Positions 9,550 to 62,048 of a stretch of DNA of 64,000 bases are shown in pieces. Under the pieces are notes generated by a model. That model saw only the letters and a program-made list of their open reading frames with translations. It did not search any database and was not told the origin of the DNA. Both the position numbers and the translations under genes were made by a program. The stretch's first letter is position 1, and each line of letters opens with the position of its first letter. Origin of the DNA: a virus; the IMG/VR virus record IMGVR_UViG_3300025929_000003, positions 1 to 64,000 of that record, one strand, 5' to 3'.

Positions 9550-10142
9550 TATACCACCGATTTCATTTGGGCGTACATTTCTGCGGGTTGCAATAGCTTC
9601 GCCAACTGTTTCCTAATTTTGTTTCGGGTTGGGATATCGGTGAACACCTGCGCTTCATACTCCACGAGGTCATTGTAAATGGTTTTAAGCTGGTTGTCCA
9701 ACGTTGCCCGTTTGGTCATATCCGCAACCATCTGCACCATATCCTTGCTCACGGGTGCCGCGCGAAGCGATATACTGATGTAGTGGAACATTCTTAGCTT
9801 GTTAGACCACATGACGTAGGCAAGGTTATCGCAAAGCATGAAAAACCTGTTCACCATGTTCTCGTACACCGAATTAGTGCCCATGGATAGTTCTGCCAGT
9901 AACTTGTTGTCTTTTATTTTAAGGAACTCGAATATCTTTAGGAGGCGCTTCTCGTAGTCTTCCCGCTCCAACTTCACAAAGGGGCTATTCTCATCCGTGG
10001 CAAACATGGCGATACGTAATAGGTTATCGTAATCCACATGAGCGAACTCATCGTACTCCGCCAAGTCGGGGTATTTTTCAATCACTGGCGTTTTAGGGGA
10101 CAGGTCGGCTATCTGGTAACGCATCTTTGCGGTATCTATCAT
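9549..10142 (-). CDS. Unknown protein in small-terminase position, 197 aa
   Basis: Helical, charged protein with no recognised domain. It overlaps the preceding gene by ATGA and the TerL start by one base, so it is translated with both. Genes immediately 5' of TerL are often the small terminase subunit, which recognises the packaging site as a ring oligomer. The mostly helical composition fits, but no HTH is obvious, so the role is an inference. Confidence 0.75.
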   Translation of the reverse strand: MIDTAKMRYQIADLSPKTPVIEKYPDLAEYDEFAHVDYDNLLRIAMFATDENSPFVKLEREDYEKRLLKIFEFLKIKDNKLLAELSMGTNSVYENMVNRFFMLCDNLAYVMWSNKLRMFHYISISLRAAPVSKDMVQMVADMTKRATLDNQLKTIYNDLVEYEAQVFTDIPTRNKIRKQLAKLLQPAEMYAQMKSVV

Positions 10143-10891
10143 GCCGCATCCTCCAATACCGCCAAAATGTATTTCTGATAAACGACCTCAACATTCTTAA
10201 TATCCCCGCCGTGCAGGTCATAAGCCATCTTGTAACCGAAGCGTTTGTCCACTAAGATGCGGTCGCCAACCCTTAAACCCATATCGCCCGTGTCTCCGCC
10301 ATCCAAATAAGCCCGTACAGGCGACGATAATGCCAAAATGGTACCAATATTCGATTCATAACCTTTAACGTTCTGTACGACAGTTAAACCACTGTCTGTG
10401 GTATATTCTGATGCCAGTTGGTCTCGCTTAAAGAACACATAGCCGTTTACGGGGATTATTTCGCCATCTTTTTGGTAGCCAAATACCATATCCATTGAGA
10501 TAAGGAGACAGTACCCATATTCTTCGGTTTCCACCACCCGATATTCTTCCTGTGCTGAGAGTTGAACGTTGTAGTTGTAGTAAATCTTATCGCCAACATT
10601 GTATGGGTGGTCACAGTCCACCTGTAGTGATGCCTGTATCTGCGAGGCCAACTCAGGCTGGCTCATTTCAGCATCTTTATCGCAGAAAAATGTGGTTTTT
10701 GGCTTTTTGATGACGGTGCCACTGATGGAGAAGTGGTTTACCGCGTGTTCATCGAAGGAGATAAGTTGAATTTCTACTTTTTTACCTTCGGGGCCGTCAA
10801 GGACGATGAGGTCATAGTTAGGACTTGCTTTTACCAGTAATTTGTTAGAGACCACTTCAAATGTGGCAAGATTTACCTTTTCGATTAACAT
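10139..10891 (-). CDS. Tandem GroES-like (Cpn10-fold) protein
   Basis: 250 residues from ATG 10891; the longer frame to 10924 would start upstream of the promoter's predicted transcription start. Residues ~150-247 follow the GroES plan: PVNGYVFFKRD, loop with SGLTVV, GTILALSSP, VGDRILVDK, then terminal YILAVLED (compare KVGDIVIF and SDILAIVE in GroES). Residues ~10-140 repeat it more loosely: NKLLVK, LIVLDG, SGTVIKKP, YNVGDKIYYNY, CLLISMDMVFGY. I read this as two fused Cpn10-like domains. It is the first gene of the packaging operon, so it may help fold or assemble head proteins, distinct from the single-domain co-chaperonin at 4288. Confidence 0.7.
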   Translation of the reverse strand: MLIEKVNLATFEVVSNKLLVKASPNYDLIVLDGPEGKKVEIQLISFDEHAVNHFSISGTVIKKPKTTFFCDKDAEMSQPELASQIQASLQVDCDHPYNVGDKIYYNYNVQLSAQEEYRVVETEEYGYCLLISMDMVFGYQKDGEIIPVNGYVFFKRDQLASEYTTDSGLTVVQNVKGYESNIGTILALSSPVRAYLDGGDTGDMGLRVGDRILVDKRFGYKMAYDLHGGDIKNVEVVYQKYILAVLEDAA

Positions 10892-10912
10892 ACTTTGTGC
10901 TTTTGTGTACAA

Positions 10913-10945
10913 CAAATATATCATTAAGTAAATTAATTCTACAAG
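10913..10945 (-). promoter_or_regulatory. Bacteroidota-type promoter for the packaging operon
   Basis: On the minus strand CTTG (10945-10942), 21-nt spacer, TATATTTG (10920-10913). It predicts a start near 10906, 15 nt before the ATG at 10891. Divergent to the plus-strand promoter box at 10950. Confidence 0.75.
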
Positions 10946-21787: not shown

Positions 21788-21817
21788 TTGCAAAATACCT
21801 TTTTTAAGTTACATTTG
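21788..21817 (+). promoter_or_regulatory. Promoter for the early plus-strand operon
   Basis: TTG (21788-21790), N19, TACATTTG (21810-21817), consensus Bacteroidota spacing. Predicted start about 21825, some 30 nt before ATG 21857. Confidence 0.75.
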
Positions 21818-23162: not shown

Positions 23163-23507
23163 ATGAAAATAGAATTATTAACTCCCGAACAACACGATCA
23201 ATTATTAAACATACATAATTCATTCCCTGAATTAACCTTAGAAAATAAAGGCTATGAGGGCATCAATAGGCGCGAATTAAGTGACGAAGCAAAGGAAGCT
23301 GATAAGCAAGTTAATGCCATTTTAAAAGCTAACGTTTGCGGGTTTAGCTCATTCCAAAACTTCTGCCACACTAAAGACGGAGATATACGTATTCGTTTAC
23401 AATACAATTGGGGTGCCGAAGATAATACCATGCCGTTTACAGGTGTTGGATATGTGTTACTATCTGAATTATTAAACGGATTTAACGAAACTACTATTAA
23501 ATCTTAA
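23163..23507 (+). CDS. Hypothetical protein, 114 aa
   Basis: MKIELLTPEQHDQLLNIHNS start, Asp/Glu/Lys-rich helix, then a beta-rich end (DGDIRIRLQYNWGAED). The ORF is preceded by AATTACGACAAA as at 22851. No recognised domain. Confidence 0.6.
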   Translation: MKIELLTPEQHDQLLNIHNSFPELTLENKGYEGINRRELSDEAKEADKQVNAILKANVCGFSSFQNFCHTKDGDIRIRLQYNWGAEDNTMPFTGVGYVLLSELLNGFNETTIKS

Positions 23508-23511
23508 TACC

Positions 23512-23760
23512 ATGTCAAAAGCTACAGAATATTACGAAAAACGTGTTAATAATATCAACACGATTAACGAGTGGATTTTAAAAGAAGGCTACGAAATTCA
23601 CACTAACAGGGAGGGCGTTTTAACCTGCTTAGGCTTATACAAGCCAGCACCCACAAAGAACGATATACCCGAGTTTTTAAAGTACCTTAAACGTGGAGCA
23701 CCCGCCGAGATAAATAATTACGTACAGGGCATGTATGATGCCTTAAACCTTTGCAAATAA
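23512..23760 (+). CDS. Hypothetical protein, 82 aa
   Basis: Follows the previous stop by 4 nt. N-terminal helix (YYEKRVNNINTINEW) and a compact C-terminus (PAEINNYVQGMYDALNLC). Unknown. Confidence 0.6.
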   Translation: MSKATEYYEKRVNNINTINEWILKEGYEIHTNREGVLTCLGLYKPAPTKNDIPEFLKYLKRGAPAEINNYVQGMYDALNLCK

Positions 23761-23767
23761 TATTACC

Positions 23768-23992
23768 ATGATAACCACCATCAACAATAGCCACAGGATA
23801 TTTTTAATATCAGGCGACCAAAATACAAGCTATGTATGTAATTTGGAAGATGTAGAAAGGATTGTTTTATCCTTTGATGACTTATCATCTGTAAAGTTTC
23901 AACACCGTTGGAACGGCTATTTTAAACACTGTTCTAAAAAATCAGTTATTGACATGCTTAAATCAATGAACCTTAATTATAAATTCTTATAA
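23768..23992 (+). CDS. Hypothetical protein, 74 aa
   Basis: Alpha/beta pattern with strands around RIFLISGDQNTSYVCNLEDV and a short helical end. Operon-like 7-nt spacing to the previous gene and 2 nt to the next tiny frame. No family recognised. Confidence 0.6.
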   Translation: MITTINNSHRIFLISGDQNTSYVCNLEDVERIVLSFDDLSSVKFQHRWNGYFKHCSKKSVIDMLKSMNLNYKFL

Positions 23993-23994
23993 CC

Positions 23995-24051
23995 ATGCAA
24001 ACCCTAAAACGCATCCTTGCAGCCCTTAGCCGATTTGCTAACAACTGCTAA
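23995..24051 (+). CDS. Tiny peptide frame, 18 aa
   Basis: MQTLKRILAALSRFANNC, a cationic amphipathic helix. It has an ATG 2 nt after the previous stop and ends just before the structured non-coding region. Translation is uncertain; it may be a leader peptide. Confidence 0.3.
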   Translation: MQTLKRILAALSRFANNC

Positions 24052-24059
24052 AGAGAACC

Positions 24060-24690
24060 ATAACCCTAACAACCCATAGCCAGCAACGGCATGGGTTTAA
24101 GGAGGTACAAAGCAAGCCGTAACTAAAGGCAATAGGTTATGTAAAAGAGTAAACAACGCATGGTAAGCCCAGCAACGTAAACCCCAAGATGCCTAAAGCG
24201 CATAGCCTATCAAACGGCATGCGCTTTAGGCAGTAGAAGCCCACAAGGTTTTTAGGCATCGCTGAAATTGCCTTAACGTTCAGCAAGGTTAACCCCGTAT
24301 TAGCCGAGGGGACAGGCTAAAGGTCAAGCAAGATAGACCAAATTATCAAGCGTACTAAAGAAACGATATTCTTTCGCATTGCCGTAATTGCGTAACGGTA
24401 AGGTTAGCAAGTGATACCAAAAACTTGACGGTCGGGCAAACCGAATTTAACCCGCGTAGATACCTAAATTCCGCATAGCGGTGTATCCATCGAATAACTC
24501 TAAGGCTTGAAATAGTGCCACGAGCAAAATAAAACGTAGCAAAGTGTGTACTTTGCCTGACGAGTTGAAAACAACGAAACGTAAAAACAGCGGATAGGGT
24601 GTAAGCTGTATAAATAAGCCGACCTAAAGGCTATAAAGGTGCATGAGCCGTAGAATGGTGACTACCTATCCCATTTATTAAACTTAAAAA
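24060..24690 (+). ncRNA. Large gene-free structured region, candidate ncRNA of ~630 nt
   Basis: There is no credible reading frame on either strand. The sequence holds many perfect hairpins. Examples: AACCCAT (24071) / ATGGGTT (24091); GCCTAAAGCGCAT (24191-24203) / ATGCGCTTTAGGC (24219-24231); GCTGAA (24261) / TTCAGC (24279); TAGCC (24301) / GGCTA (24315); GGTC / GACC (24322-24339); GATAC-CCGC / GCGG-GTATC (24459-24487); GCAAAGT / ACTTTGC with a GTGT loop (24539-24556). GGATAGG (24592) can pair with CCTATCC (24665). Size and density recall phage-borne giant RNAs such as GOLLD or ROOL, but I cannot match a consensus. It is flanked by small plus-strand genes. Confidence 0.7.
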
Positions 24691-24699
24691 TCAAACGTT

Positions 24700-24852
24700 A
24701 TGAAATACTTTTTAATTCGGCTTACATACGGTCGCTGGGCTTCGGTATATGCATACAATTCTGATGATGCTATAATTGCATACCACCTACTGTTTGATAA
24801 GACCGACAAAGAAGATGTTTTATCGGCCTATGCGCCACTTATACAACCATAG
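24700..24852 (+). CDS. Hypothetical protein, 50 aa
   Basis: First gene after the structured region. MKYFLIRLTYGRWASVYAYN then SDDAIIAYHLL resembles small phage proteins with a strand-helix pattern. Function unknown; A-rich leader AAAATCAAACGTT. Confidence 0.55.
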   Translation: MKYFLIRLTYGRWASVYAYNSDDAIIAYHLLFDKTDKEDVLSAYAPLIQP

Positions 24853-27281: not shown

Positions 27282-28655
27282 ATGCAATACCTAAAGATTA
27301 AGAACAAAGGCGAATTGGATATTCGCCTGATATGCCTAATGGGTGCCAGTACCAAAACTGATGACCCTACAAAGCTGGGACAATTTGGCACAGGGCTTAA
27401 ATATGCCATTAGCTACCTGTTACGCAATAAAATAGATTTCAGGCTATTCTGCGGCAAGAAAGAGGTGTTATTTACCATTGTGCCTACCACCATTGCGGGT
27501 AAGGATTTCGAGGAGATATATTGTGATGGGCAAACCATGAATATTACCACACAATACGGCTATCAATGGCAGGCGTGGGAAGCCATGAGGGAAATATGGT
27601 GCAACGCTACCGACGAGGGCGCAGATCGCAAATCTATTATGTCTGACCGTTCACATACCCACGGCGCAGCGGGACACACCACGTTTTACATTGGCATAAC
27701 CGAGGCTATACAGGGTGTTTTGGATAAGTGGAATGAATACTTTTTAAAAGCCAAACCTTTGTTTAGCAATGAACAGTATGCTATTTACCCAAACACAGGT
27801 AAACTAAAACTATACAAAAACAGTGTGCTTATTTACGAAAGTAGCTACGCTGAAAGCCTGTTTGCCTACGATATAAAAGAAGCCAATCTGAATGAGTTAC
27901 GCCAGTTTATGGGTAGCTATGAGTATTCAGTAGGTTGCGCGTTGCTATCATCCAATAGGGAGGTAATCGCTAAAGTTATGGAGGCTATTAAAAGCAGTGC
28001 TAAAGTTATAGAGGCAACCCTGAATTGGGACTATGTGCCAGGCAAAACCGAAACCGTTAAAGAGATATTCTCGGGTTATTTATTCCTGCACCCACAAAGC
28101 AATTCTAAAGCCGCCAGCGCAAGTAGCGTAATCGTTAACCAAAGCCTGTACAACCTGCTTAAAAAGTATAATCTGCCCTGTGAGCGAGTTGAAATATCTC
28201 GGGGTGGTTACTATGGTGGGGGGGGTATTGGTTACGGTGACAAGGCTGATATGAAGTATAAAGAGATACTTAACCGTGATCTGCAAAAGAAGATTGAGGC
28301 AATAGCTGAAAAATACCATTCGGGCATGACATTTAAAATCGTGTCTCCATTGGGTGATAGTTTTGATTTATTGGTAGAGGGTGGTTATTCAAAGACCGTG
28401 CTATTCAGCACTTCGTTACTTAACCTGTCAGCCGCCGACCTTGAAAGCACGGTGCTTATAGGTATTATGCACACACAGGAAGAAAACATATTTAAAGCCT
28501 TTAAACGCCTTGTTAAGTCGGTTATGGGAAACCGTAACTTTAAGAAGATAATATTCGGTAGGAACATTGGTACAGGCGAACCAGCCAAGTATCTGCCACC
28601 TGTGAACGAAACCGCATTGGCTGATATTAGCCTTGACGAAGATTTACCCTTTTGA
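27282..28655 (+). CDS. GHKL-type ATPase with permuted motif order
   Basis: 457 residues. Near the N-terminus, MGASTKTDDPTKLGQFGTGLKYA-type sequence holds a GHKL lid and G2 box (LGQFGTGLK, 32-40). At 104-113 comes EIWCNATDEG, an N-box (E-x3-N-x2-D). Normal GHKL proteins (Hsp90, MutL, gyrase B, MORC) have the N-box first, so this looks circularly permuted. The central ~230 residues are alpha/beta and unassigned; the protein ends ISLDEDLPF, an SSB-like tip. It may be an ATP-driven chaperone or DNA-handling protein. Start ATG follows the previous stop by 5 nt. Confidence 0.7.
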   Translation: MQYLKIKNKGELDIRLICLMGASTKTDDPTKLGQFGTGLKYAISYLLRNKIDFRLFCGKKEVLFTIVPTTIAGKDFEEIYCDGQTMNITTQYGYQWQAWEAMREIWCNATDEGADRKSIMSDRSHTHGAAGHTTFYIGITEAIQGVLDKWNEYFLKAKPLFSNEQYAIYPNTGKLKLYKNSVLIYESSYAESLFAYDIKEANLNELRQFMGSYEYSVGCALLSSNREVIAKVMEAIKSSAKVIEATLNWDYVPGKTETVKEIFSGYLFLHPQSNSKAASASSVIVNQSLYNLLKKYNLPCERVEISRGGYYGGGGIGYGDKADMKYKEILNRDLQKKIEAIAEKYHSGMTFKIVSPLGDSFDLLVEGGYSKTVLFSTSLLNLSAADLESTVLIGIMHTQEENIFKAFKRLVKSVMGNRNFKKIIFGRNIGTGEPAKYLPPVNETALADISLDEDLPF

Positions 28656-29951: not shown

Positions 29952-29980
29952 TTGCCAATTAAATAAAAACATTATATTTG
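29952..29980 (+). promoter_or_regulatory. Promoter of RNA element A
   Basis: TTG (29952-29954), N18, TATATTTG (29973-29980). The sequence from the -7 box onward (TATATTTGCAGTGTTAAAAG) closely matches that of element B at 38690, so promoter and RNA 5' end are conserved together. Confidence 0.75.
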
Positions 29981-29986
29981 CAGTGT

Positions 29987-30101
29987 TAAAAGAGGTCATG
30001 CGAGGCCGCCAATAACAAAGCAGTAATTAAGACAAACCAAATAAATATTACCCGTTCTTGTAGGTGGCCTCGCAAATGTTGACCTCTTGAACGGGTTTTT
30101 A
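29987..30101 (+). ncRNA. RNA element A: long-helix pseudoknot RNA with terminator
   Basis: Helix 1 AAGAGGTCA (29990-29998) / TGACCTCTT (30080-30088). After a 1/6-nt internal loop comes helix 2 GCGAGGCCGCC (30000-30010) / GGTGGCCTCGC (30063-30073). The 52-nt apical loop contains ACCCGTTC (30050-30057), which pairs with GAACGGGT (30089-30096), directly 3' of helix 1 and followed by a T-run. The outcome is a pseudoknot or an attenuator. It lies between a 70-residue gene and a winged-helix gene. Same design as the element at 38701. Confidence 0.75.
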
Positions 30102-30113
30102 TTTGGTCAAAAA

Positions 30114-38685: not shown

Positions 38686-38700
38686 TTTCTATATTTACAC

Positions 38701-38826
38701 CGTTGAAAGTAGTCAGGGAAAGGCAACTCAAACGCGCATTTTTTCAATTTCGGTATACACAATAATTACCGCATTTCAGTTTAGACTTTTTGCCTTTCCC
38801 TGCAAGTCTACTGGATGCGGTTTTTT
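38701..38826 (+). ncRNA. RNA element B: paralogue of element A
   Basis: A -7-like TATATTTA precedes the conserved 5' end CACCGTTGAAAG. Helix 1 AGTAG (38708-38712) / CTACT (38808-38812). After a 2/6-nt internal loop comes helix 2 AGGGAAAGGCAA (38715-38726) / TTGCCTTTCCCT (38790-38801). The apical loop contains ACCGCAT (38768-38774), pairing with ATGCGGT (38815-38821) directly 3' of helix 1 and followed by six T. The stems are unrelated in sequence to element A, yet the architecture is the same. Confidence 0.75.
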
Positions 38827-39130
38827 ATTGTGCTGTTGTATGAATTGTACAGCATAGGGAAGCAGAAGCCCTAATCAAAAACAACCTATTGAAATACCGT
38901 CTGCATTAATTGCAAGCTGGCACTGTGTGTAAGGTTCACAACCAAGCGACTGCAAAATTTGATTGAGTGATTAATGCAACCAACGCCGAAAGGATGCCGT
39001 GCAGGAGCGGTTTGTATTGAAACATAGAGTGACCACTGTAATCATAACGGTCAAACCTTGGCTCTAAAGAGAGTTGCAGGAGAAGAACCTTTTATCACTT
39101 AGCTAAAAAAGCACTTTTATATTCATTGAT
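38827..39130 (+). other. Gene-free structured stretch after RNA element B
   Basis: No credible gene. Dyads include GCTGT-TGTA / TGTACAGC (about 38832-38853), AGGG / CCCT (about 38856-38872) and GCATTAAT / ATTAATGC enclosing 38904-38980. It may be the rest of a longer RNA or regulatory leader for the 129-residue gene. No promoter match was seen inside it. Confidence 0.45.
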
Positions 39131-60524: not shown

Positions 60525-62048
60525 CTATAACCCATAATCTGTAGCTGCCTTTTTGCTTTTATTAACCAGTGGCGTCCCCGCTGGCGTGGTTGGTATCCTG
60601 TGCTTCTTATCAAACTCGGGACGTTTCTTAAACAAATCCAAGTGGTTTAATAAAGAATTAGCCACAGTCTTTCCAGCTTCCCCGTCTGTAATGGTAAACA
60701 CCTGCTCATCTTTTACCTTTTTGGTTAATGGCTTGCCAGTTTTATCGTTAATGATAGGTTTACCTAATTGTGGGTTAGGAATAGTTTTACTGGCATCGTT
60801 AGGGTCGGGGATAGTGTGGCGCTCATCCAATACCGGCACCTCGGTTGTAGCACCTGGTTTCCCCGGCATGGTAATGGTAAATCCATTCGTAGATGGCGAG
60901 AAGTGACCACCCGCGGCGTTCGCGGCCCTGATTAGCTTATCTGTTGACGCTTGGTCACCTTGCTGTACTTGTTGTATAAACTTATCTCTATCATCATCCT
61001 CTGCTGGATGTGCTTGGTCAAATCTATATTTATCCCAAAGATGTTCATTGTACTTATCGGGTGTAACTACACGAGACTTATTCACCAACGATGTGCCATA
61101 CTTGCCAGCGTCTGAGATAAATTGACCATACCCTGCATTTTGCTTTGTAATAGCCGCTTGCAATTTCTCTTTGGCATAAGTATCGCCGGGGGCGATGCCC
61201 AATTTGGTTAATACCTCCGCATTGTGGGCTTCAGTAGGGTTATCCAGCATCTGCTGCGCGATATGGTCTGTTGCCTGTGCGTTGGTATACCATACCCGTT
61301 TGCCATTCTTATCGTACACACTACCGATATCCCCCAATTCTGGGTCAATACCATATTTAGTCTTTTTAAGGTTATTCCAGCGAGGGTCGGCAGAGTTAAC
61401 ATATGCCTGCTGCATCATGGAACTGGTGTCGGGCACAATCGTTTTTACTGTCCCATTCCCTTGTTCAATGTGCACTGGTTTAATCAGCTTATTAAAGTCA
61501 TCAATACCAGATGGCGTACCCTGCAGTTGTGGCGCGGGCTTACCAAAGTAATCGGTAGGCTTTGCCAAAGCACCTTGCACAAACTGGTTCACCTGTTGCT
61601 TGCTATCTTCTGTAAAACGGTTATCATGGTCCGCGGCTACCATTGGCAATAATTTGCCGATAGACTGCTCCAACTCTTTTGATTGACGCGCTTTTAATAA
61701 AATATCATTCTTGCGTTGTTCAAACTCGGGGTTGCCAAAAGGCGAACGCCCTGTTTTTGCTTGATAGGCGGCGGCATCGGTTAGGTATTGATTCCACTGG
61801 TCGTTAATCGGCTTACCAGCTTGTGCCCAATACTCGGGTAGCTTTTGAGCGGCTAAGTCTTTTTGGTATTGCGCCTGCAATAGTTGTTGTTGCTTTTGTT
61901 GCTGCAAAGCCGCATTACGCAAGTCTGCCGCATGTTGCTGGCCCAACTGCATCGCATATTTTTCAGTATTTGACTGAGGCAATACAAACGCTAAACCCTG
62001 GCCTATGCCATCTGTTGCGTTACCAATAAATCCCGGTGCTACTGCCAT
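60525..62048 (-). CDS. Internal virion protein candidate, 507 aa
   Basis: The N-terminal helical region is rich in Ala and Gln (LQQQKQQQLLQAQYQKDLAA, about 50-69), followed by alternating helical and Gly/Pro/Asn linker regions. Similar large Gln-rich proteins are T7 gp15/gp16-like ejection proteins. It lies between a 214-residue candidate internal protein and the polyvalent gene. Role inferred. Confidence 0.65.
   Translation of the reverse strand: MAVAPGFIGNATDGIGQGLAFVLPQSNTEKYAMQLGQQHAADLRNAALQQQKQQQLLQAQYQKDLAAQKLPEYWAQAGKPINDQWNQYLTDAAAYQAKTGRSPFGNPEFEQRKNDILLKARQSKELEQSIGKLLPMVAADHDNRFTEDSKQQVNQFVQGALAKPTDYFGKPAPQLQGTPSGIDDFNKLIKPVHIEQGNGTVKTIVPDTSSMMQQAYVNSADPRWNNLKKTKYGIDPELGDIGSVYDKNGKRVWYTNAQATDHIAQQMLDNPTEAHNAEVLTKLGIAPGDTYAKEKLQAAITKQNAGYGQFISDAGKYGTSLVNKSRVVTPDKYNEHLWDKYRFDQAHPAEDDDRDKFIQQVQQGDQASTDKLIRAANAAGGHFSPSTNGFTITMPGKPGATTEVPVLDERHTIPDPNDASKTIPNPQLGKPIINDKTGKPLTKKVKDEQVFTITDGEAGKTVANSLLNHLDLFKKRPEFDKKHRIPTTPAGTPLVNKSKKAATDYGL

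Follow-up and report, generated by a model that had tools for sequence, protein, structure and literature searches.

The question raised by this locus is what a phage keeps in a gene-free stretch lying within an operon of otherwise closely packed small genes. The window, i.e., the whole stretch of DNA analysed here, comprises the first 64 kb of a viral record of 71,233 bases, and its TerL, portal and related proteins link the phage to phages of Flavobacterium, Cellulophaga and other Bacteroidota. The initial annotation placed the stretch at 24060-24690 and proposed that it is a giant phage RNA, dense with hairpins and lacking credible frames.

A gene-free stretch in the early operon

The late genes of this phage are encoded on the minus strand, up to 21251, and the early operon of small packed genes occupies the plus strand from about 21851. 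The gene-free stretch, for which we prefer the redrawn limits 24054-24699, sits within the early operon, with the following layout:

21810-21817, plus strand: TACATTTG, probable promoter of the early operon (consensus match only)
23163-23507, 23512-23760 and 23768-23992, then 24700 onward: neighbouring genes, nearly contiguous
24054-24538, plus strand: body of the proposed non-coding RNA, gene-free, ending at the predicted cleavage site
24534-24582, plus strand: complete type III hammerhead ribozyme (covariance model made without the window; descriptor match)
24583-24699, plus strand: segment between the hammerhead and the next gene, with a small hairpin AGCC/GGCU at 24617-24632
24700-24852, plus strand: downstream gene, 50 aa, without known relative

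The tight packing described around the gap is evident from the adjoining genes, and the lack of credible frames is borne out by the ORF list, the stop counts and the comparison of open runs with shuffled sequences. On the plus strand between 23992 and 24700, there is no ATG-initiated ORF of at least 40 aa; the sole ORF of this size in the gap is a 49-aa frame on the minus strand that starts with TTG. Each plus-strand frame of 24054-24699 contains 16-20 stops, and the longest open run in the six frames, 91 codons, is ordinary compared to the shuffles (mean 78, range 42-139). An 18-codon basic ORF, MQTLKRILAALSRFANNC (23997-24053), with the local start context ACC-ATG, stops directly 5' of the RNA. 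ARAGORN identified no tRNA in the whole 64-kb window.

The only upstream promoter-like site is the one at 21810, at the operon start, and therefore the RNA is probably co-transcribed with the early genes. No TANNTTTG match was found from this site to the RNA, and no promoter was detected just upstream of the RNA, so that release of a free RNA would require cutting at a second site.

Several other features of the window were recorded. A second gene-free stretch of the early operon (38690-39130), behind TATATTTAC, contains several hairpins and is closed by an imperfect repeat of 18 nt, with a fold z of -1.64, no hammerhead and no Rfam match. In the region 29973-30110, TATATTTGCAGTGTTAAAA, a promoter-like string identical to that of the Elemovirus leaders (see below), precedes a long inverted repeat (GAGGTCATGCGAGGCC / GGCCTCGCAAATGTTGACCTC), after which comes the next ORF. 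On the minus strand, 10139-10924 encodes a 261-aa protein that is conserved in G002-G004 and whose C-terminal part matches the phage co-chaperonin GroES (phrog_3188, E 3e-6). The 457-aa protein encoded on the plus strand at 27282-28655 is distantly related to proteins of Pseudomonas YuA-like, Bordetella and other phages, with a weak sacsin-like hint at its N-terminus.

The hammerhead and the proposed RNA body upstream of it

The hairpin GCAAAGT-GTGT-ACTTTGC, listed in the initial annotation without its role being recognized, is indeed present at 24539-24556 and forms stem I of a type III hammerhead with the sequence ACGU A^ GCAAAGU GUGU ACUUUGC CUGACGA GUUG AAAA CAAC GAA ACGU, as follows (all on the plus strand):

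24534-24537/24579-24582: stem III, 4 bp, open
24538: H17, an A, not G
24538/24539: predicted self-cleavage site, after A24538 (hammerhead position 17; chemistry of the class)
24539-24545/24550-24556: stem I, 7 bp, closed by a loop
24557-24563: core CUGACGA
24564-24567/24572-24575: stem II, 4 bp, closed by a loop
24576-24578: core GAA (GAAA over 24576-24579)

All core letters are present, the U16.1-A15.1 pair corresponds to U24537-A24579, and the loop of stem I, UGUGU, is similar to the one in the satellite tobacco ringspot ribozyme. Because Rfam 15 gives merely 16.2 bits to Hammerhead_1 at this site, below the gathering score, we built a covariance model of our own (R1) from 36 phage hammerheads, with the window and its nearest relative left out; this model recovers the window hammerhead with 62.9 bits (E 1.5e-17). 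Thus, the core, the topology, the match to an independent model and the compensated stems of a relative (see below) are all as the type III class requires. Judged by its sequence, the identity of the hammerhead is close to certain, and it should be capable of self-cleavage. Like other type III hammerheads (RF00008; phage examples in PMC3088659), it combines a complete core, three stems and the same topology with an intergenic position in a phage, but differs from them in that it does not occupy a short gap but forms the 3' terminus of 480 nt of structured sequence lacking genes. Its peculiarities are that the cut follows an A, that stem III has just 4 bp and that the Rfam models make no call.

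The sequence upstream of the ribozyme folds exceptionally well. The minimum free energy of 24054-24533 corresponds to z = -5.2 against dinucleotide shuffles, none of 200 shuffles folding as well, compared to z of -1.05 to +0.79 for ten coding stretches of equal length; the 117 nt located 3' of the hammerhead are unremarkable in this respect (z -0.53). The main predicted elements of the body, on the plus strand, are:

24071-24097: hairpin AACCCAU-A-GCC-AGCAAC-GGC-AUGGGUU, predicted pair probability 0.97-1.0
24190-24203/24219-24232: longest perfect stem, 14 bp, UGCCUAAAGCGCAU/AUGCGCUUUAGGCA
24104-24108/24515-24519 plus 24113-24118/24504-24509: predicted long-range closing helix

Accordingly, the reported density of hairpins holds, and the stem previously given as 13 bp exists, with an actual length of 14 bp; I2, I7 and others are likewise perfect stems. 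The closing helix has a pair probability of 0.99 in the RNA ending at the cleavage site, but 34 of 200 shuffles pair end-to-end as strongly, so that it is not itself significant and was dropped as a hallmark. Two short motifs are strongly over-represented, AGCAA (8 copies versus 2.2 expected) and CTAAAG (5 copies versus 0.45 expected), each count being matched by none of 1000 shuffles. Several AGCAA copies are located in predicted hairpin loops, and the AGCAA and CUAAAG repeats could be binding sites.

The homologue search for conserved pairings in the body that was suggested along with the initial annotation returned no body homologue (blastn against phages and plasmids, and in relative phages), with only the hammerhead being matched. 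The body fold, therefore, rests on thermodynamics, there being no homologue in which covariation could be counted. Taken as a whole, the stretch very likely encodes no gene but a large structured RNA of the phage, in line with the original suggestion, although it does not belong to the giant RNA families brought up there (see below).

Hammerheads and structured leaders in other phages

Hammerheads have been known in phages since about 2011. A search limited to the window hammerhead's core and its stem II led to phage G004 (contig L012), with a TerL that is about 32% identical to that of the window phage. In this relative, the letters of stem I (UACAGG..CCUGUA) and of stem III (AUGU/ACAU) are not those of the window, but both stems remain fully paired. 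The G004 hammerhead also ends a gene-free folded stretch (z -2.4), 8 nt before an ATG; no structural homology between the two RNAs was seen. A loose pattern that requires no pairing yielded 107 distinct matches in viral contigs, and in 86 of these, all three stems can be formed, indicating that the phage hammerhead class is real. The covariation seen in alignment A1 is inflated given that its rows were picked for pairing, the unbiased figure being 86 of 107. Most of these hammerheads occupy short intergenic gaps, with medians of 28 nt upstream and 17 nt downstream, a position already described for phage hammerheads (PMC3088659).

The nearest relatives by TerL (58% identity) have no type III hammerhead. 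One of them, G003, carries a single perfect type I hammerhead (GATTAA..TTAATC; L028, 14173-14222, reverse strand; near 60925 in G003) on the strand opposite to the homologue of the operon-start gene. Protein queries with the 457-aa and 201-aa genes found no sister phages. The 114-aa gene has a homologue in contig L174 (66% identical), near which the RNA and the hammerhead are absent, and no type III hammerhead was detected across that record.

A similar arrangement was found in Elemovirus and its kin (L153/L171, L138, L154, L158 and others). In about 25 phage contigs, a structured leader ends directly in a type III hammerhead with a UGUGU loop, about 12 nt before a start codon. As in the window, a folded RNA has this ribozyme as its 3' end and is placed upstream of small early genes; unlike in the window, the leaders open the operon, frequently preceded by a TANNTTTG promoter, and their bodies are unrelated in sequence to that of the window RNA. 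At least three unrelated leader types can be distinguished (alignments A2, A3 and A4), and several upstream helices of type 1 contain compensatory changes, as judged from an alignment of only five sequences. No structural homology was seen between the window RNA and the three leader types, and comparison of the leaders with Rfam identified no family, with the hammerheads alone scoring, below threshold. In the cultured Elemovirus, the leader is located upstream of gp59, the first early gene (NC_055853.1; 68 near-identical records, Flavobacterium sp. BAL314), and a leader with a type III hammerhead is present in a Flavobacterium MAG as well. A match of Bacteroides phage BK687P2 to an elemo-type leader was rejected, covering only an AT-rich promoter region with no hammerhead seen.

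Two further recurrent elements were observed in these contigs. A conserved motif, ACTATAAC.GCGGGT...TACTC.GG, lies 5' of the type III hammerheads of L158, L161, L155, L175 and others and is also present in the Flavobacterium MAG contig; it has no Rfam family. Behind the type III hammerhead of the leader, the first small genes are followed by type I hammerheads whose stem I is nearly constant (GGTTAA..TTAACC) in L047, L055, L115, L138, L148, L152, L154-L156, L158, L160-L163, L165, L166 and L168.

A proposed role for the RNA, and the alternatives

We consider it probable that the locus encodes a structured phage ncRNA of about 480 nt that is part of the polycistronic transcript of the early operon and has its 3' end cut by its own type III hammerhead. 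The early operon would be transcribed as one message that includes the structured RNA, and the hammerhead would cleave in cis after A24538, with no protein needed. A hammerhead cut leaves a 2',3'-cyclic phosphate on the upstream 3' end and a 5'-OH on the downstream product. The upstream product would thus have a fixed 3' end at 24538 with a 2',3'-cyclic phosphate, and the downstream mRNA would begin at 24539 with a 5'-OH protected by the stem I hairpin. The most likely role of the body would be that of an early RNA acting in trans through binding of a factor from the host or the phage. We infer the stability and the trans action of the upstream product, as well as its abundance and the function of the body. 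Against the ncRNA reading, most phage hammerheads are in short gaps, so that mRNA processing alone may suffice; furthermore, no type III hammerhead is present in the relatives nearest by TerL, and the body lacks a homologue in the phage and plasmid sequences searched.

A serious, if rather less likely, alternative is that the hammerhead merely cuts the early polycistronic message between genes, setting mRNA ends and decay rates, and that the 480 nt do not act in trans, serving as a long, structured, untranslated spacer or as a 3' barrier. Phage hammerheads often flank genes, and a function in the processing of long phage transcripts has been proposed for them (Perreault 2011, PMC3088659), which fits the short median gaps given above, and the elemo-like phages carry further type I hammerheads between the following genes. 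However, in a packed genome, 480 nt that fold exceptionally well are more than a spacer calls for; moreover, three other structured leader types, one with compensatory changes, are found at the same place in related systems.

An improbable variant is a gated leader, in which cleavage would report folding or a ligand. Such gating would involve a single strand:

24495-24521, plus strand: strand with two predicted partners, the 5' arm of the same RNA (24104-24118), closing the RNA and leaving the hammerhead free, or the hammerhead (24544-24567), blocking the cut

In the folding model, stem I is blocked in the isolated fragment 24480-24582 (P 0.04) but free when the entire RNA up to 24582 is folded (P about 0.9), and only 6 of 1000 shuffles better the duplex energy. 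The sequestration statistic for 24495-24521 is of modest significance (56 of 1000 shuffles), 5-9% of random upstream 54-mers block equally well, and the switch is absent in L012. When the sequence is extended to 24699, the blocked form becomes dominant, in a model that omits tertiary energy. On these predictions, a folding-gated ribozyme is suggestive only.

That the stretch consists of chance hairpins or a degenerate gene, as the single genome and the lack of homologues might imply, is very improbable in view of the fold z of -5.2 (0 of 200 shuffles), the R1 match of the ribozyme and the stops in every frame, and is refuted for the hammerhead. Membership in GOLLD or ROOL, which are likewise large, elaborately folded phage RNAs of comparable size with no assigned function, is hardly tenable: these RNAs often occur near tRNA islands (PMC12286853, where a hammerhead is not mentioned), of which the window has none, and neither they nor OLE and HEARO, all named for an Rfam scan in the initial annotation, match in Rfam 15 even at E = 10. 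There is likewise no Rfam match to a group I or group II intron, the stretch lying between separate small ORFs, nor an HDV-type match or a tRNA that would indicate an HDV-like theta ribozyme, and no other Rfam family scores above threshold.

Returning to the proposed self-processed ncRNA, the hammerhead adds one more member to a class already known. The arrangement, in which a large structured RNA of a phage carries a ribozyme at its own 3' end and the bodies differ from case to case, was not found in the openly accessible literature searched. The nearest published idea is the theta ribozyme beside phage tRNAs in gut phages (PMC10879173), also a self-cleaving phage ribozyme adjoining an ncRNA and proposed to mature it, but with an HDV-like fold and tRNA partners, in contrast to a hammerhead and a large RNA of no known family. 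As a quite tentative and doubtful extension, this could be a new kind of giant phage ncRNA, early and trans-acting, that carries its own hammerhead for the 3' end and frees the ribozyme only after folding, with several unrelated bodies and one self-processing cassette among Bacteroidota phages. The recurring layout suggests a concrete role for phage hammerheads, protein-free 3'-end maturation of phage ncRNAs, and the cultured Elemovirus phages, with Flavobacterium sp. BAL314 as host, allow it to be tested. Looking upstream of type III hammerheads is also a way of finding phage RNAs that are missed by sequence search.
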